Shown here: positions 29,593 through 57,462 of the stretch, in pieces
Position numbering within the stretch: position 1 is the first letter of the stretch
Layout: each line of letters starts with the position of its first letter
Virus record (IMG/VR): IMGVR_UViG_3300028800_000096
Location: 1-64,000 of that record
Source of the DNA: a virus
Direction: 5' to 3' (one strand)
DNA length: 64,000 nucleotides
Notes under the pieces: generated by a model
What the model was told of the DNA's origin: nothing
Databases searched by the model: none
Seen by the model: only the letters and a program-made list of their open reading frames with translations
Program-made: the position numbers and the translations under genes

Positions 29593-29837
29593 CACGCAGC
29601 CTCCTTGATCGCGTCGAGTTTTGCTCCCATGCCGATCAACCTGCGGAGTGTTTCAAAGAGTTCAGGTTCTTCTTTTCTGAGACGCATGAGTTCCTTCAAA
29701 ACAAGTTCGCCCTTTGCCATCCATTCGAGAGTCTTGATGGCTTGCCCTAAGCCTGAGCGAATGTCCTCGTTGCGAGCCAAGGGGAGACAATCCCGGAGGC
29801 ACGAAGCTTGGAAGGCGAGGCTTCTGAGTTCGCTCAT
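29592..29837 (-). CDS. small helical protein, unknown
   Basis: 81 residues, all helix with three Cys/Leu-rich faces (CLRDCLPLARNEDIRSGL). Sits between the methyltransferase and HNH genes with overlaps at both ends. Unknown function. Confidence 0.55.
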   Translation of the reverse strand: MSELRSLAFQASCLRDCLPLARNEDIRSGLGQAIKTLEWMAKGELVLKELMRLRKEEPELFETLRRLIGMGAKLDAIKEAA

Positions 29838-30730
29838 GCTGCACCCATCAAGTCCAACAGAGTGCCGCCAGAGACTTCCTGCTCGATGCCTGCGAGGTTC
29901 CGCGCCGCTTGGCGCCAGTAGCTTTCCTTAAGCTCGCAGCCGATGAATTTCCGTCCCGCCTTGATCGACGCAAACCCTTCCGAGCCGATGCCCATAAATG
30001 GAGAGAGAACCACGTCCCCAGGGTTCGACCAGAGCCGTATAGCTCGCTCGATCAGATCAAGCTGTAATGGGCAGACGTGGCGTTCGTCGTCGCTCTCGCG
30101 CGCTGTACGCCCGTTCAGAACGTCTGTCTGGTCTATGTCCATCCAAACCGGAGACGCCCACTTCTGCCAAAGATCGACGGGGAATGAGCCCTTGTCTTTG
30201 CCGACCGGCTCCGGGTTATCTCCGGGCTTACGGAAGACGAGAACGTAATCCGCCAAGCCAACCCGGCTCATTGCACTGTCTTTGCAAAGCTGCTTGTAGA
30301 GAAGTCCGAGAGCCTTCGTGCGCTGCATTTCGACTACAGGGTCACGCCAGACGGTTATGCGGCAGTGATAAATCCAGCCCTCGGCCTCATGCGCATCACG
30401 GATTTGATCGGAGAACGCCTTGATGCCGATAAACCCGTCTCTGAATTTGCGCGTCGGCAGATCAGTACAATGGACGGCGGTCAGCCGCCCCGGCTTCGTC
30501 ACACGATGAACTTGCCGGATGATGTGCCGATACTGCTCGAAAAACTCGCTCTCATTCTTGCAGTTTCCAAGGTCAGCGGCGCTGTCCGAGTAAACAAACA
30601 AATCAACGAACGGCGGCGAGTAGACCGAAAAATGTACCGACGCTTCCGGCAATTCCGAAAGAGCGTGTGCGCTGTCGCCGTGAATGGCGGTCCAGTTCTG
30701 GCCCGTCTCTTGATTGAGAATGGTCGTCAT
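29834..30730 (-). CDS. site-specific DNA methyltransferase
   Basis: 298 residues. Motif IV is SPPF in VYSPPFVDLFVY, and motif I is the C-terminal VLSPFMGIGSEGFAS with KFIGCEL, the beta-group order (IV before I) of N4-cytosine or N6-adenine enzymes. VGLADYVLVFRKPG marks the strand before the target region. It could protect phage DNA against host restriction or replace CcrM-like marking. The recognition site cannot be read from sequence. Confidence 0.9.
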   Translation of the reverse strand: MTTILNQETGQNWTAIHGDSAHALSELPEASVHFSVYSPPFVDLFVYSDSAADLGNCKNESEFFEQYRHIIRQVHRVTKPGRLTAVHCTDLPTRKFRDGFIGIKAFSDQIRDAHEAEGWIYHCRITVWRDPVVEMQRTKALGLLYKQLCKDSAMSRVGLADYVLVFRKPGDNPEPVGKDKGSFPVDLWQKWASPVWMDIDQTDVLNGRTARESDDERHVCPLQLDLIERAIRLWSNPGDVVLSPFMGIGSEGFASIKAGRKFIGCELKESYWRQAARNLAGIEQEVSGGTLLDLMGAA

Positions 30731-35687: not shown

Positions 35688-36389
35688 CTAAAAGTGATAA
35701 TTCATGCCGACGCGAACAGAATCCGCATCGAGGGTCGTATGATTTCCATAGCCGTGGCCGACAGGAGGATCGGTCAGAGAGGTCTGATCGCCGTTCTCAG
35801 TCCCGAAGTCGTAGTGGGCATATTCGAGCTTGAGGCTGATGTTCTCGGTCAGCTTTCTCTCAACGCCGCCACCGACAACAAATCCCGTGAACGTGTCCGT
35901 GCCGTGTGTCTGATAGCCTTTGGCTGTCGTCGTCTGCGTGGCTTCGCCCGTGTAGAGAGAAAAGCCGCCCTTTGCGAAGATCAGGGTCGCCGGATCAATC
36001 AGGAAGCCTACGCGGCCCGTGAAGGCGCCGAGGAAGCCACCATCAAGTGAAATGTCCTGATGGTTGCCAGACTGCGACGAAGGCGTCGCGATGCTGCCCG
36101 AAAGATCGGCATAATCGAGGTCCGCTTCAACGCCGAAGACGAAGCGATCCATCTGCAGATTGTAGCCGAGAGTGCCACCGCCAACGAAGCCGCCGACACT
36201 GTTATTAAAGGGTCCGACAAACTTGGGGTCCTTGCCCCAGTCCTTCACGTTGTCCGTGGTCGTGGCATCGCCCCAGACATAGCCAAGGTTTGCGCCAGCA
36301 TAAGCACCGGTCCATGTGTCACCGGCCTGTACCGGGCTCGCTGCAAGGATCGCAGCAATTGAAACAGCAGTTAGAGTAAGAGCTTTCAT
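35688..36389 (-). CDS. outer-membrane beta-barrel (Omp25/31-type porin-family)
   Basis: 233 residues from ATG 36389 after AAGGGGGATATA. A cleavable signal peptide (MKALTLTAVSIAAILAASPVQA, cut after Ala22 or so) is followed by WTGAYAGANLGYVWG, the hallmark start of Omp25/31-like barrels of rhizobiales, then eight amphipathic strands with turns, and the terminal DSVRVGMNYHF ends in Phe as required for outer-membrane assembly. It sits in the early operon, 20 bases behind Bet. Known phage barrels alter the host surface; superinfection exclusion is possible. Confidence 0.88.
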   Translation of the reverse strand: MKALTLTAVSIAAILAASPVQAGDTWTGAYAGANLGYVWGDATTTDNVKDWGKDPKFVGPFNNSVGGFVGGGTLGYNLQMDRFVFGVEADLDYADLSGSIATPSSQSGNHQDISLDGGFLGAFTGRVGFLIDPATLIFAKGGFSLYTGEATQTTTAKGYQTHGTDTFTGFVVGGGVERKLTENISLKLEYAHYDFGTENGDQTSLTDPPVGHGYGNHTTLDADSVRVGMNYHF

Positions 36390-36409
36390 TATATCCCCCT
36401 TGTTGGAAA

Positions 36410-37312
36410 TTATTGAACGGCTTCGAACGCCTTCTTGAGTTCGAGTGCCCCGGCCTTGTCCTTCGCCCAATACTCTTTCAGCGCCGCAGCATTGCGGTTG
36501 TGGAACATGCGAACACGGTCGGGATCTTCAGACTTGTGCTGAGCTATGAAGGCGAGAACCTTGTCGCCAAAGACGCCGACAGGTTCGCGAGCAAGCGGCT
36601 CGCCATCGCACCAGTCGATCGTGATGCAGTTCGCACCACCGATGAGTTCGAAGCGCCGCTTTTGTTCCTCGCCTTCGATGATCTCGGTTGCGGTTAGGTT
36701 CAGGACTTCCGCCTGATCCAGTTCGCCTTCGGAATAGGAACCGGCCGTCTCTTCTGGGAATGCCTTGCGGATGACGGCAGCTTCAACGCACTTCGCCATC
36801 ATCGTTTCTGGCATCGTCCACCAGTTCTTTTTCTTGCGATCGAGAGTGAACTTTCCGGTCGGTTTGTTGTTCTCCCAAACCTCTTTGATCGGCGCGCGTT
36901 CTTCCCAGCGGAGTTTTTCCGAAACCTCAAACCATTCGCCGTGTGAATGGACGAAAACAGACACCTCGCAATCGACCATGCCGGTCGGATTGCTGTCACT
37001 CTTGAGTTCTTCGTCGTAGGTGAAGCGGGCAGGGCGATTATCTGGTCGATAGTTCTTCGACCGTGCGGCGATCTTGCGATAAAGGCCAATGCCGAGAACG
37101 GGCACCACGTTGCGTGACGGCTCGTCAGGGTCGAAGCAGAAAAAATATATATCCCTTACAAAAGGGTTCGCCCCATAGATTTCGCACCATTCGATTGCTT
37201 CATCTATTTCGGCGCCTCGCAGTTCCTTACCGACCGTCGCTTTGAATAGCGACAGCTTGCGGGCATCTAGGCGGGTGAGAGCTTTGTTTGTGATTGGAAC
37301 AATATTAGACAT
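36410..37312 (-). CDS. bet: single-strand annealing recombinase, Bet/RecT type
   Basis: 300 residues from ATG 37312 (AAGGAG), not the upstream start. TRLDARKLSLFKATVGKEL and IEWCEIYGANPFVRDIYF open the Bet family core, VVPVLGIGLYRKIAARS continues it, and NWWTMPETMMAKCVEAAVIRKAFPEE is the typical C-terminal motif. Promotes annealing of complementary single strands in phage recombination. No lambda-exo or RecE-like exonuclease gene is visible beside it. Confidence 0.9.
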   Translation of the reverse strand: MSNIVPITNKALTRLDARKLSLFKATVGKELRGAEIDEAIEWCEIYGANPFVRDIYFFCFDPDEPSRNVVPVLGIGLYRKIAARSKNYRPDNRPARFTYDEELKSDSNPTGMVDCEVSVFVHSHGEWFEVSEKLRWEERAPIKEVWENNKPTGKFTLDRKKKNWWTMPETMMAKCVEAAVIRKAFPEETAGSYSEGELDQAEVLNLTATEIIEGEEQKRRFELIGGANCITIDWCDGEPLAREPVGVFGDKVLAFIAQHKSEDPDRVRMFHNRNAAALKEYWAKDKAGALELKKAFEAVQ

Positions 37313-41081: not shown

Positions 41082-41861
41082 CTATCGGCGGTAGCTGATG
41101 TGCTGGATCATACAGCCTATTACTCGCCCAGGGTTGGTCTTCGGGTTCACGGACTCCGTCCTGTAGCTGCCGTTTAAAGGCTTCAGAATGAAGTTCTTTT
41201 CAGGGTCCAGACGACTATCCGACTCCTGCCATTTCCTAAAGATTGCAGTGTCCTCAGACTTCACCTGAGCGCAAACGAAATCCCCTGGTTTTGGCCGCAC
41301 ATCTGGGTCGATCAGAACATCATCCCCTGGCAAGAAACGCCTCTCCTCATATGGAAAGCTCGGGACCATGCTGTCGTCTTCGATAGGCATGAGAAAGGAG
41401 TTCGGTCCGATCTCATGACCCGGTTTCGACGCCACGGGCTGAAGTCTATTTTCTTTTTTTGCCTGCTCTTTCACCGTCTCGAACGCTGATGGTATCATGA
41501 CAGCCTCTCTGGCAGTCAGTCGCGGCAGCATTAATAATCTCGGGCGTGCTGCTGTATGTTGCGGCCGACTTCCCCACTCTGGTTCCTCATCGCCCAAGAA
41601 CAGCCAGTCGAAAGAGCCCTCTGGAGATTCAAAAACTCCGAGCGCCAACCTGGCTTCGTCGGCAGGTATCTCTCGCGTGCCTTTTTCGTAGGCTCTGTAG
41701 GAATCCACCCCCCGCTGGAATCCCGCAGATCTCAACGCTTCGAACGCCAAATCGGTATTATTAAATTTGGCCTTCCTGAGCTGAAAAAGGCGCGCACCTA
41801 TTTTTTTCCTGCGCTCCGAATTCTTCTTGGTTCGCTCAACAACCAGCTTCTTGGTTGTCAT
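41082..41861 (-). CDS. CI-type repressor, HTH plus S24-like domain
   Basis: 259 residues. An N-terminal XRE-type helix-turn-helix (about residues 18-80) is joined by a linker to a LexA/CI-like S24 domain: nucleophile-type Ser164 in IEDDSMVPSF, FLPGDDVLIDPDVRPKPGDFV and a terminal FILKPLNGSYR...GRVIGCMIQ. At the place of the catalytic Lys stands IFRKW (Arg209), and no Ala-Gly or Cys-Gly cleavage pair is seen in the linker, so self-cleavage may be lost. ATG preceded by GAGAGGTG. Should hold lysogeny by binding GGTAC-N5-GTACC sites. Confidence 0.85.
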   Translation of the reverse strand: MTTKKLVVERTKKNSERRKKIGARLFQLRKAKFNNTDLAFEALRSAGFQRGVDSYRAYEKGTREIPADEARLALGVFESPEGSFDWLFLGDEEPEWGSRPQHTAARPRLLMLPRLTAREAVMIPSAFETVKEQAKKENRLQPVASKPGHEIGPNSFLMPIEDDSMVPSFPYEERRFLPGDDVLIDPDVRPKPGDFVCAQVKSEDTAIFRKWQESDSRLDPEKNFILKPLNGSYRTESVNPKTNPGRVIGCMIQHISYRR

Positions 41862-42798: not shown

Positions 42799-43338
42799 AT
42801 GGCAAACCAATTTACGGGACGACACGGCTGGACCGATGAGCGGATAGCGCTTTTGAAGCAGCTCGTCCGCGAGGGATATTCCGGAGGCTTGATCGCCGCG
42901 AGGATGGGCGTCACCCGAAGTTCCGTGATCGGAAAAGTCGTGCGTCTCGGAATGCAGCTCGGCAACACCCGCAATTCTCAGCGGAACCTAGACCAGCATT
43001 TAAGGCTCAAGGCCAACTACACAAGACGAAAAAAGGCCGGTGACCGGCTTCGCCCGCCGCCTCCAAAGGTCAGGTTCACGGTCGAACCGCTGCCCGTTCA
43101 GAATATCGAGGACGTGGCGCGGAAATCTCTGCTCGATTTAAACCTCAATGATTGCCGTTATCCAGTTGGAGACCCCAAAACTCCGGGATTTGGTTTCTGC
43201 GCCTTAGAGCGCGTTCCGGGCTCCGCCTACTGCCATGCGCACAAAGAGCGGTGCTCCGGTGGTCTACCTCCAAAAACCCGTCAGAAGCCAGTTCTGGCCC
43301 GTGAAACAGCCCCCGTGAAGGAGACGGCCGATGCTTGA
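42799..43338 (+). CDS. gcrA: GcrA-type cell cycle regulator
   Basis: 179 residues from ATG 42799. The N-terminal domain GWTDERIALLKQLVREGYSG, GLIAARMGVTRSSVIGKVVRLG is the GcrA DNA-binding domain, and the C-terminal SLLDLNLNDCRYPVGDPKTP with FGFCALERVPGSAYCHAHKERC is the sigma-interacting domain with its conserved Cys/His residues. In Caulobacter GcrA binds sigma70 and favours promoters with CcrM-methylated GANTC. Only alphaproteobacteria and their phages are known to have it. It heads the PR operon. Confidence 0.9.
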   Translation: MANQFTGRHGWTDERIALLKQLVREGYSGGLIAARMGVTRSSVIGKVVRLGMQLGNTRNSQRNLDQHLRLKANYTRRKKAGDRLRPPPPKVRFTVEPLPVQNIEDVARKSLLDLNLNDCRYPVGDPKTPGFGFCALERVPGSAYCHAHKERCSGGLPPKTRQKPVLARETAPVKETADA

Positions 43339-49015: not shown

Positions 49016-49791
49016 AAATCATCTCGTCTGCGGCCATGCTGAAGCAACGCCTATCCCTGAAACGGCAGGGACGATTGGGCGAGAATATGACCGTGCCACC
49101 TAGAAGCCCTGAGGATCGCGTCAGAGCGGCAAGAGCGCGTCTGGCTATCCAAGGAGCGCCTCACCTCTACAAAGCTCCACAGCGCGCTCCTGCTTACGAG
49201 AACGAGCCAACTGCGGAGTGGCTAGAGAAGAACAGCGGCAACATAGAAACGCGCCACGTCAAATATGGAAAGGGAGGCTCTCACAAAGGCTACCGTGTTC
49301 GCCCGATCACCGAAGCGCACGCTGAGTCATTCCCAGATGAAATGCACCTCGCTTTTGCGCGGTTTATGCAGGATAGCGAATATCACCTCCGCATAGGTGT
49401 CTCGGATATCAACCGATCTGGAGGGGGAAGTCCATCCGCGCGGCTCGGAGGTCTGGGGTTAGTTCCGCAGTATGTCCGTGAAGGTCACCACAGACACGTC
49501 TGGCTGGAGCAGCAGCTCGCCGGCAACGCAGTCTTCAACCAGGTGCTCCGGAAGCTGGTCTACCGCTCCGACGTTCACGCAGATGGGAAGTCCTTCGATC
49601 TCGTCGAATTCGGGAAAGTCCTTTGGCCAGCGCTCAAGGATCAAAGCGCGCTGAGATGGAGCACGAAGACAGCCTTCCTCGCCTTTGGAGCGGAATTGAT
49701 GCGGCTTTACAAGGATCCGAGGTGCCCAAGGGTTATTTGGATCAACGACGAAGAGCGGGAAGGGGTTCGGAGACTGGAGATGGCACGATGA
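49012..49791 (+). CDS. phage protein, unknown
   Basis: 259 residues from the TTG at 49012 (251 from ATG 49036). A basic N-terminus (KQRLSLKRQG), a mid region RHVKYGKGGSHKGYRVRPI, and a helical C-terminal domain with VEFGKVLWPALKDQSALRW. The stop overlaps the next ATG (ATGA). No family recognised; the position at the end of the replication genes could suit a late regulator, but nothing shows this. Confidence 0.6.
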   Translation: MKIISSAAMLKQRLSLKRQGRLGENMTVPPRSPEDRVRAARARLAIQGAPHLYKAPQRAPAYENEPTAEWLEKNSGNIETRHVKYGKGGSHKGYRVRPITEAHAESFPDEMHLAFARFMQDSEYHLRIGVSDINRSGGGSPSARLGGLGLVPQYVREGHHRHVWLEQQLAGNAVFNQVLRKLVYRSDVHADGKSFDLVEFGKVLWPALKDQSALRWSTKTAFLAFGAELMRLYKDPRCPRVIWINDEEREGVRRLEMAR

Positions 49792-52046: not shown

Positions 52047-52223
52047 ATGGATGAGGTAGTTGTAACGCCAGAGATGATAAGCGCCGGGCTTGCAGAAATC
52101 AGCGGCACTGAATTGATCGACGCATGGGAAGGTTGGCATAGTCGAGAAGAACTGCTTACGGCGATTTATCAAGCGATGGAGAAACAGCGACGCGCGTCTG
52201 AACGAGCACGTCCGAGGGCCTGA
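52047..52223 (+). CDS. small protein, unknown
   Basis: 58 residues: MDEVVVTPEMISAGLAEISG, a helix with WEGWHSREELLTAIYQAMEK, and an Arg-rich end. The VTPEMI start is also found in the 53.0 kb protein, so the two may be paralogues. Ribosome site weak. Confidence 0.55.
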   Translation: MDEVVVTPEMISAGLAEISGTELIDAWEGWHSREELLTAIYQAMEKQRRASERARPRA

Positions 52224-52380
52224 CTTTGAGACGGAGGTTCCGGGTTTGGGTTTCCGCCGACGAAATACCCGCGAGGCCAGGGAATTTTTCCAAGTAGAGC
52301 TTCGGGCAAAAATGATGTGAAATTGTCTAAGCCTAACTCGGTAACGGAAAAGGCATGGGCGATTAGAAACAATAAAGGGC

Positions 52381-52409
52381 TTGACATCGCGCCGAATCAC
52401 CTGCATATT
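52381..52409 (+). promoter_or_regulatory. sigma70-like promoter with GANTC in the spacer
   Basis: TTGACA 52381-52386, 17 bases, CATATT 52404-52409. The spacer contains GAATC (52394-52398), a CcrM/GcrA-type GANTC site. It reads toward the packaging genes but the terminator at 52426 lies immediately downstream. Confidence 0.65.
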
Positions 52410-52425
52410 GCGCGTACATCAGGCC

Positions 52426-52460
52426 ACGCCCGGAGCAATTCGCTTTCGGGCGTTTTCTAT
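52426..52460 (+). terminator. intrinsic terminator just behind the 52.38 kb promoter
   Basis: ACGCCCG pairs with CGGGCGT (up to two more pairs) around a 10-14 base loop, followed by TTTTCTATTT. From a start near 52416 the RNA would be only about 45 bases long unless antiterminated. It could also end transcripts from the early operon. Confidence 0.8.
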
Positions 52461-52628
52461 TTCAAATCAATATCTTAAGACCAAATGCCACTATATTCCG
52501 ACATGCGAATCAAACAGGGCAATAACGGTCTAAGGTGATTTGGAAGGTAATTGGATCTCAATCTGAGGTGCTGTCCTAACTAGGACAGTCGCCCGTCCAC
52601 AACCCACTTGACTTAGGGCACGTGCTTG
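52461..52628. promoter_or_regulatory. regulatory gap with palindrome before the packaging genes
   Basis: CTGTCCTA-AC-TAGGACAG (52571-52588) is a perfect 18-base inverted repeat. GGTGATTTGGAAGGTA (52534-52549) is identical to 39949-39964 at PL. No gene is seen. Likely binding sites for regulators of the late region or of the minus-strand gene at 51.8 kb. Confidence 0.55.
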
Positions 52629-52934: not shown

Positions 52935-53068
52935 TCGCGCTCGGAGTCATCGGCGTTTTAGGCTACGCGGTGTTTATTGTGAGGACTTTGGTAAGGTCAC
53001 GGAACAGATTTCGATGTGTAATGATTCTTCGCGACAGGGCGGCAATGAAAAGGGGGTCCCTCAGATAG
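52919..53068 (+). CDS. possible tiny membrane protein
   Basis: 49 residues from TTG 52919: a membrane helix AVIIALGVIGVLGYAVFIV followed by an Arg-rich tail. Overlaps both neighbouring genes. Start codon and lack of a clear site make this uncertain. Confidence 0.3.
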   Translation: MYAVIIALGVIGVLGYAVFIVRTLVRSRNRFRCVMILRDRAAMKRGSLR

Positions 53069-53226
53069 AGGTGACGCCTGAAATGATTGAGGCTGGTGTG
53101 AAGATTTACACCGATTGGTGGGAAGGGCGCGCAATATTGCCCGCACCTACCGAGGCGGCTTTTGTCGAGCATCTGTTTCGACATATGGCTGCCATCCAAC
53201 AGCGTGGCAGCCAGAGGTCGCCATAA
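53014..53226 (+). CDS. small protein, unknown
   Basis: 70 residues: VPQIEVTPEMIEAGVKIYTD, then WWEGRAILPAPTEAAFVEHL. Shares VTPEMI-(A)G with the 52.0 kb protein. Unknown function. Confidence 0.6.
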   Translation: MCNDSSRQGGNEKGVPQIEVTPEMIEAGVKIYTDWWEGRAILPAPTEAAFVEHLFRHMAAIQQRGSQRSP

Positions 53227-55364: not shown

Positions 55365-55880
55365 ATGGCACGGGCAAGAAAGGCCAAGCCAGCGGGTAAG
55401 GCAAAGAAATCAGCAAGCAGCAACCAGAAAGTAGGGCGTCCGTCTGAATTCAAGCCCGACTATTGCGAGCAAGTTGTGAAGCTTTGCCGCCTAGGAGCTA
55501 CGGATCAAGATATTGCCGAGTTTTTCAATGTATCAACTACAACAATAGATAATTGGAAGATCAGATATCCGGAATTTCTTGGGGCCGTTCGCGCAGGAAA
55601 GATCGAAGCGGACGTTCAGGTCGCCAATTCTCTGTTCAAAAAAGCCACTGGATACGTGGTCGAAGTTGAAAAAGTCGTTGGTCGCGCTGACGATCGCAAG
55701 ATCGTCAAGATGAACATCGCGATCGAGCCAGATACGCAAGCTTGTATGTTCTGGCTGAAGAACCGACGCAAAGATCAGTGGCGCGACAAGCAGGAAATCG
55801 ACGTCACCGTTATGAACCATGAGCAGGCTCTTGAGGCTCTGGAACAAGAGGCCAATGCAGACGTCACCCGCGTTCACTGA
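55365..55880 (+). CDS. terS: terminase small subunit
   Basis: 171 residues after AGAGAGG. A Lys/Ala-rich N-terminus (residues 1-25), then GRPSEFKPDYCEQVVKLCRL, GATDQDIAEFFNVSTTTIDNW, the helix-turn-helix of TerS, and a central helix (VQVANSLFKKATGYVVEVEK) for oligomerisation. It should recognise the packaging site. Overlaps the large subunit start. Confidence 0.88.
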   Translation: MARARKAKPAGKAKKSASSNQKVGRPSEFKPDYCEQVVKLCRLGATDQDIAEFFNVSTTTIDNWKIRYPEFLGAVRAGKIEADVQVANSLFKKATGYVVEVEKVVGRADDRKIVKMNIAIEPDTQACMFWLKNRRKDQWRDKQEIDVTVMNHEQALEALEQEANADVTRVH

Positions 55881-57462
55881 GCGCGAACTTAAACTGCGTC
55901 GGACCTTGCGAGATGATTTTGAGTCATACTCACGATCTTGCCTAAAGATCAGAACGAAGACCGGACAAACAACCCCACTGCTTTTAAATCGGTCGCAGCG
56001 TTATCTGCACGACAGGCTTGAGCAGCAGCGGCAGACCAAGGGGCGGGTTAGGGCTCTCGTCCTCAAGGGACGCCAGGTTGGGATATCCACCTACATCGGC
56101 GGGCGGTATTACTGGCGCACCACGCATGGCCGTGGTCTGAAGACGTTCATCTTGGCGCACCTTGATGATGCCTCGACGAATCTTTTCAACATGGCGAAGA
56201 GGTTTCACGATAACTGTCCGCCATTGTTAAAGCCTGAGACCGGCGCAGCGAATGCGAAGGAACTGAGCTTCCCGCGACTGGATAGTGGATATAAGGTTTC
56301 GACAGCCGGGAGCGCCGCAACGGGCCGCTCGGATACCCTGCAGCTTTTCCACGGAAGCGAGGTGGCCTTCTGGCCTGCGGCTGCTGACCATTTCGCGGGT
56401 GCTATGCAGGCCCTTGCCGACGCGCCGGGTACTGAATGCGTCCTGGAAAGTACTGCGAATGGAATCGGGAACACATTCCATTCTCTATGGAAATCTGCGG
56501 AGCGCGGCGACAGCGGTTTTGAGGCGATCTTCATTCCGTGGTTCTGGCATGAAGAATACATTCGGGAAGTGCCTGAGGATTGGCATCCGCCTGCGACGTT
56601 CGAGGATTACGCGGTCAATCATGGACTTACGAGAGAGCAAACGTACTGGGCTTTCGTTAAGAACCGAGACTTGGCGGTCAGCGCTGGCGGCAGCTTTGAC
56701 GAGATAAACTGGAAATTCATGCAGGAATATCCGGCGACCGCCGAAGAAGCCTTCCAGACATCAGGCGCTACGTCCTTTATCGCGCCGACGGTCGTTCTGA
56801 AAGCCCGCAAGACAACGACGGTCCAGCCATACGGGCCGATTGTTCTAGGAGTGGACCCGGCTCGAGGCGGTGGCGACAAGACGGCGATCATCGACCGGCA
56901 AGGGCGAGTCCTTGGCAAGAATGTCTGCGCGATCCTCGATCATAACGACCTGATGGCCACGGCCGGTGAAGTCGTTCGCTGTGTGCGCTGGTTCGGGAAG
57001 AAGGACCTGCGCAAGGTCATCATCGACACGACGGGCTTAGGGGCTGGGCTTTACGACCGGCTTCGAGAGCAGCTTGGCGACCTCATAATGGGCGTCAACT
57101 TCTCGTCTCGCGCTTTCAATCCGGATGGATACGTCAACCGCCGCGCTGAAATGTGGGACCTGATGCGCATGTGGTTCGATGATCCGGCCGGGGTTTTGGT
57201 TCCGGACAGCGATCAGTTTCAAGGCGACGTCTGCGCTCCGACACGCGGCAAGGGCGCGACACGTTTCGATAGCGCAGGTCGTTTGATCCTTGAGGACAAA
57301 GACCACATTCGGGATCGGCTAGGGTTTTCTCCTGATCTCGGAGACGCAGCAGCGCTGACGTTCGCGGTTGATATGGGAATGTTTCGAGACAATACCGCCA
57401 ATGACGACGAAGACAACGACATCAACTCACGTCACACACGCAGCGGCGTGACAGGATACTAA
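55855..57462 (+). CDS. terL: terminase large subunit
   Basis: 535 residues from ATG 55855. ATPase: LKGRQVGIST is the Walker A-like loop (GRQVGIS), with the following TFILAHLDDAST and ECVLESTANGIGN (motif III-type). The nuclease domain has GVDPARGGGDKTAII, VIIDTTGLGAGLYDRL and DLGDAAALTFAV with the three Asp of the RNase H fold. Together with TerS it packages DNA. Confidence 0.95.
   Translation: MQTSPAFTERELKLRRTLRDDFESYSRSCLKIRTKTGQTTPLLLNRSQRYLHDRLEQQRQTKGRVRALVLKGRQVGISTYIGGRYYWRTTHGRGLKTFILAHLDDASTNLFNMAKRFHDNCPPLLKPETGAANAKELSFPRLDSGYKVSTAGSAATGRSDTLQLFHGSEVAFWPAAADHFAGAMQALADAPGTECVLESTANGIGNTFHSLWKSAERGDSGFEAIFIPWFWHEEYIREVPEDWHPPATFEDYAVNHGLTREQTYWAFVKNRDLAVSAGGSFDEINWKFMQEYPATAEEAFQTSGATSFIAPTVVLKARKTTTVQPYGPIVLGVDPARGGGDKTAIIDRQGRVLGKNVCAILDHNDLMATAGEVVRCVRWFGKKDLRKVIIDTTGLGAGLYDRLREQLGDLIMGVNFSSRAFNPDGYVNRRAEMWDLMRMWFDDPAGVLVPDSDQFQGDVCAPTRGKGATRFDSAGRLILEDKDHIRDRLGFSPDLGDAAALTFAVDMGMFRDNTANDDEDNDINSRHTRSGVTGY

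Follow-up and report, generated by a model that had tools for sequence, protein, structure and literature searches.

The window, which is the whole stretch of DNA analysed here, comprises positions 1 to 64,000 of an IMG/VR virus record of 64,906 bases, and no nucleotide relatives of it were found in the phages collection. The late-control gap (52224-52625; 402 bp) holds a promoter-terminator unit. On its upstream side, the replication genes (DnaD-like, DnaB and prim-pol) are succeeded by small genes, and the late genes lie on its downstream side, with the packaging genes TerS and TerL downstream of the promoter-terminator unit. A gene for an S24-type repressor is located on the minus strand (41082-41861), and gcrA is located on the plus strand. 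The phage also encodes an OmpA-like outer-membrane beta-barrel protein (35688-36470, minus strand; PF13505), and two small proteins with a common VTPEMI(S/E)AG motif are encoded on either side of the late control region (52047-52223 and 53014-53226). The main features are listed below, where L135 and L137 denote two relatives that carry the orthologous promoter.

29834-30730, minus strand: N6/N4 DNA methylase, kin to the methylases of many unrelated phages
42799-43338, plus strand: phage gcrA; the ORF that spans these coordinates matches PF07750 (E = 2e-27), and its product has both a DNA-binding and a sigma-interaction domain
49087-49791, plus strand: candidate late regulator/antiterminator of 234 aa, proposed from its position (L135 ortholog with 78% identity)
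52381-52386, plus strand: -35 box TTGACA of the putative late promoter; the nucleotide similarity to L135 starts exactly here
52391-52420, plus strand: 30-nt stretch GCCGAATCACCTGCATATTGCGCGTACATC, which shows no difference in L135 or L137, in surroundings that are 82.6% identical
52393-52400, plus strand: spacer element CGAATCAC, which corresponds to the late element CAAATCAC with G in place of A
52404-52409, plus strand: -10 box CATATT, invariant in L135 and L137
52426-52461, plus strand: intrinsic terminator from folding, with a stem-loop (52426-52453) and a T-rich tail TTTCTATT, partly kept in L135
52463-52469, plus strand: second element copy, CAAATCA, directly past the terminator
52506-52512, plus strand: third element copy, CGAATCA (the second TGATTCG site), which is GAATG in L135, so that GANTC is not conserved
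52536-52542, minus strand: fourth element copy, CAAATCA (TGATTTG on the plus strand), from the sequence
55365-57462, plus strand: terminase genes of the late operon, from a PHROG match and homology
55365-55880, plus strand: small terminase subunit (PHROG match)
55819-57462, plus strand: gene treated as the large terminase subunit, from homology to annotated terminases

The promoter TTGACA-17-CATATT (52381-52409) has a spacer of 17 nt and matches the consensus at 10 of 12 positions, with the -10 box contributing only four matches of six. The GANTC sequence GAATC occupies 52394-52398 inside the spacer element CGAATCAC, where the minus strand reads TGATTCG. Transcription would be predicted to start near 52416. 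The terminator stem begins 16 nt past the -10 hexamer, the segment 52416-52465 folds with an energy of -18.1 kcal/mol (z = -3.7), and this terminator would, unless antiterminated, yield an RNA of about 45 nt. A preliminary description of this DNA had placed here a promoter with GAATC between its -35 and -10 boxes and an intrinsic terminator just after it, and the present analysis found all three in place.

The identity between the window and the orthologous promoter of L135 and L137 is 82.6% over 52381-52545. The spacer GAATC is unchanged in both relatives, and conservation of GANTC is confined to these two. In L135, the lower stem of the terminator is retained and its loop is altered, and further copies of the element lie upstream of the -35 box. 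gcrA, the candidate regulator and the promoter-terminator are common to L135 and the window, but the packaging genes that follow in L135 are different ones. By analogy, this pattern suggests a lambdoid-like exchange, in which the control module would have been kept and the late genes swapped; lambdoid phages keep Q and pR' while exchanging their late genes. The TerL-like ORF of L135 (10252-11091) seems, as judged by eye, to run into an intein-like stretch.

Terminase relatives were taken from the genome and viral collections, and the 4 kb upstream of TerL was examined. Within this distance, terminators preceded by a promoter were found at 13 loci on the coding strand, some of them near-identical, and at one on the other strand; several relatives had no recognisable promoter-terminator module upstream of TerL. 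The layout in the relatives consists of TTGAC, 9-10 nt, CAAATCAC, a -10 box and a GCCCG-type terminator, just upstream of the terminase or portal genes. AAATCAC is the spacer word common to relatives just upstream of terminase, and AATCAC after TTGAC peaks at one offset when all loci are considered, a small number of the matches coming from duplicate loci. The spacer element of the window sits 1-2 nt nearer the -35 box than that of most relatives. In addition, the terminator of some relatives is preceded by another copy in inverted orientation, GTGATTTGC, and L107 has an extra GAATC in the spacer beside its A-form element.

A collection scan with TTGAC-AATCAC-CGCCCGGAG returned 11 contigs, including L135 and L137, and most of the others carry CAAATCAC. 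When A or G was allowed in the pattern, at least 101 non-redundant matches were obtained. Among the matches listed, 42 had a terminator, some of them in close kin; 39 of these were of the A-form CAAATCAC and three of the G-form (the window, L135 and a doubtful case, L170), while the matches listed without a terminator comprised 41 A and 18 G. The main ORF downstream of the module was TerL or portal in all 10 phages sampled, with several distinct families represented. A background control, in which 385 alphaproteobacterial genomes were scanned for AATCAC together with a shortened terminator word, gave no match, and a shuffled-element control pattern likewise gave none. A outnumbers G by 39 to 3 among the terminator-bearing matches listed, and the GAATCAC of the window is read as a G variant of CAAATCAC; most simply, it would be a variant of the spacer element of the relatives and not a conserved methylation site. 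The sequences themselves show how the promoter and terminator are arranged, that this arrangement recurs ahead of terminase or portal genes, and that the element is conserved.

The late-control gap contains four copies of C(A/G)AATCA, where about 0.1 would be expected; A and G are each found in two of the copies, and TGATTCG therefore occurs twice in the gap. The entire window has only three TGATTCG (52394, 52507 and 54441), compared with 17 expected from dinucleotides, and two of the three fall within the gap. The copy directly past the terminator overlaps a putative IHF-like match to WATCAANNNNTTR (52465-52477), which L135 has too. A second GANTC promoter around 52507 was considered and rejected, as the site is without good boxes and its GANTC is not conserved in L135. 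A near-perfect palindrome, CTGTCCTA-AC-TAGGACAG (52571-52588), also lies inside the late control region, outside the part aligned to L135.

The protein encoded at 49087-49791 is proposed as the antiterminator from the position of its gene. In L135, about 640 nt separate the end of the orthologous gene from the promoter and contain nothing larger than small ORFs, while in the window more genes, absent in L135, lie between the two. In about 27 of the 39 loci, the gene that immediately precedes the module falls in one group, which includes DUF6456 and phrog_15385 proteins and has soft edges because it was built by single linkage in a 60-sequence set. The candidate of the window is tied to this group by a weak pairwise link of 17 bits. 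It was not matched by the PF20057 (DUF6456) model or recognised by a family model built without it, and a profile comparison of it with the phrog_15385 or DUF6456 sets returned nothing; its predicted structure (pLDDT 36) was too poor for a fold search. DUF6456 matches were also found in Caulobacter. DUF6362 was rejected as the regulator of the window, from which it is absent.

The preliminary description had noted that GANTC falls in a 17-base spacer only rarely by chance and that one site is no proof. GANTC is present in 2.3% of all 17-nt windows of the genome, and it occurs in one of five promoter-like sites with at least 10 of 12 consensus matches and in two of 31 with at least 9 of 12; the single GANTC promoter site is weak evidence at these rates. 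In the window as a whole, GANTC is depleted about twofold (115 observed versus 227 expected under a maximal Markov model) and is the lowest of 16 comparable palindromes, while the depletion is milder in the relatives L135, L137 and L046. An enrichment of GANTC in promoters did not emerge. Across 1.66 Mb of related loci, 31 spacer sites were seen versus 21 expected at 9 of 12 matches or more, an excess no greater than that of other palindromes containing A/T, and no sharp GANTC peak after TTGACA was present in these loci; for these two reasons, GANTC in the spacer was rejected as a general rule. Two local clusters were observed elsewhere: four GANTC within about 80 nt before a 506-aa ORF in the gcrA-carrying phage G040 (L122:12907-13100), and four, including TGATTCG and GAATCACCTC, in a gap between genes of L046 (5584-5990), roughly 4 kb ahead of TerL, in a phage in which no gcrA was found.

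A full GcrA is encoded at 42799-43338, as had been described, and both of its domains align to the solved Caulobacter GcrA. Its score against the NCBIfam GcrA equivalog is 74 bits, where the cut-off is 280, indicating that it has diverged from the host equivalog. gcrA was found in eight of 45 virus records, that of the window included, and the gcrA-carrying relatives G033/L098 and G038/L108 have the A-form element. CcrM was not found in the phage; its methylase (29834-30730) was rejected as CcrM, with 38.5 bits compared with an equivalog cut-off of 830, and L135 has no PF01555 methylase.

We consider it likely that 52381-52461 is a phage late promoter with a promoter-proximal terminator, forming an antitermination module of the pR'-tR'/GafZ-like type, and that its GANTC is an A-to-G variant. 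In the mechanism that we infer from these sequences, the host sigma70 polymerase would start near 52416 and, unaided, would stop after about 45 nt at the leader terminator. A phage late regulator, putatively the protein encoded at 49087-49791, would dock on the C(A/G)AATCAC element in the promoter spacer and load onto the polymerase, which would then continue past the terminator and transcribe the packaging and structural genes. The A-to-G change in the element would create GANTC in this lineage and may add a host methylation/GcrA input, but would not provide general control. The preliminary description had proposed a methylation-dependent, antiterminated late promoter; its antiterminated, late part is well supported by the recurrence of the promoter-terminator pair upstream of terminase and portal genes, while it was probably wrong on methylation as the main control.

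An alternative hypothesis is that the late promoter is methylation-gated, with GcrA of the phage or the host, bound to sigma70, activating the promoter only once host CcrM has methylated the GAATC near -20, either alone or atop antitermination. The spacer has the sequence expected of a GcrA promoter, namely GANTC between the -10 and -35 boxes with the extended TGATTCG, which is given as the best GcrA-activation motif in the Caulobacter work as quoted in PMC7987155. Moreover, GANTC between the two boxes defines a Caulobacter promoter class activated at 40-60 min (PMC4287350), GcrA is needed for a Brevundimonas prophage operon that includes terminase and portal genes (PMC7987155), GAATC is unchanged in L135, a phage that likewise carries gcrA, and GANTC elsewhere in the window is depleted. 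However, GANTC is not conserved across the orthologous promoters, as the A-form is present in most other lineages at the same position, including the gcrA-carrying G033 and G038; the second TGATTCG is gone in L135, the phage methylase is not CcrM, and L135 lacks a PF01555 methylase. We therefore regard such gating as possible but rather unlikely, and the relatives do not support methylation or GcrA as a conserved control. As GAATC is invariant between two diverged phages that both have gcrA, a GcrA input is possible as a lineage-specific overlay. The more elaborate version, in which a methyl-GANTC/GcrA site has arisen from the late antiterminator element, so that one 8-bp sequence would serve as antiterminator dock and as epigenetic cell-cycle sensor and phage GcrA would time late transcription, is speculative and in our view unlikely.

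Two further readings give the unit a different role. The spacer element might be bound by a late activator or repressor of the usual kind, with the terminator merely insulating the late genes from upstream transcription; the inverted second copy in some relatives and the extra copies upstream of the -35 box in L135 have a dimer- or array-like arrangement that would suit such a protein. In nearly all cases, however, the terminator comes close after the start, and the promoter's own transcripts must therefore pass it, while the spacer position is the docking place of Q-type and GafZ proteins (PMC11150451); we judge this reading to be quite unlikely. Even less probable, to the point of being hardly credible, is a small-RNA gene whose product would be the terminated RNA of roughly 45 nt itself. 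The short promoter-terminator unit and its stable hairpin would fit, but the unit matched no known RNA family in Rfam, L135 keeps only the hairpin framework with a different loop, and the constant place upstream of late genes better suits a leader.

The preferred reading, a late promoter with an antitermination module, has several known counterparts. Caulobacter GafZ antiterminates from an element between the -10 and -35 boxes of the GTA promoter (PMC11150451), and the likeness to the GafZ/GafY system of the Caulobacter crescentus GTA lies in a spacer antiterminator element, putative in the present case, at a capsid/packaging promoter. The element there is GCGCCCG-CTGGCGC, whereas here it is CAAATCAC, and the GTA terminator consists of 150-bp repeats after the first gene, in contrast to the single intrinsic terminator in the leader here. 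Homologs of Rhodobacter capsulatus GafA carry the annotation DUF6456 (PMC9638019). In several relatives, the gene just before the module belongs to this family, although the window's own candidate is not detectably DUF6456. With lambda Q at pR'-tR' and Pseudomonas AlpA (PMC7969949), the module has in common a putative spacer docking element, a promoter-proximal terminator, a candidate regulator gene just upstream in many relatives, and the retention of the regulatory module while late genes are exchanged; however, the element sequence is unrelated, and none of the genes scanned was found to encode a member of the lambda Q or 21 Q families.

The GcrA/CcrM promoters (PMC3667746, PMC4287350, PMC7987155) resemble the present one in having TGATTCG at about -20 of a sigma70 promoter, here in a GcrA-encoding phage, but GANTC is confined here to one lineage, the element is otherwise CAAATCAC, and gcrA-carrying relatives lack GANTC. 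A phage-borne GcrA, with 32-33% identity, is also found in the phiCbK-like phages, which are large and of another kind; GcrA was proposed there to act on host replication genes, and no link to late promoters was made (PMC3556154). We found no description of the promoter-element-terminator module in the literature searched, in which subscription journals were thinly covered.

These results suggest that phages, most of them probably infecting Alphaproteobacteria, widely use a late-gene switch in which a defined DNA element is combined with a promoter-proximal terminator and often with an adjacent DUF6456-type gene. The question of GcrA narrows to a single base, GAATCAC versus AAATCAC. The module ties the GTA regulators GafA and GafZ to live phages, and it would allow late operons to be annotated from sequence.
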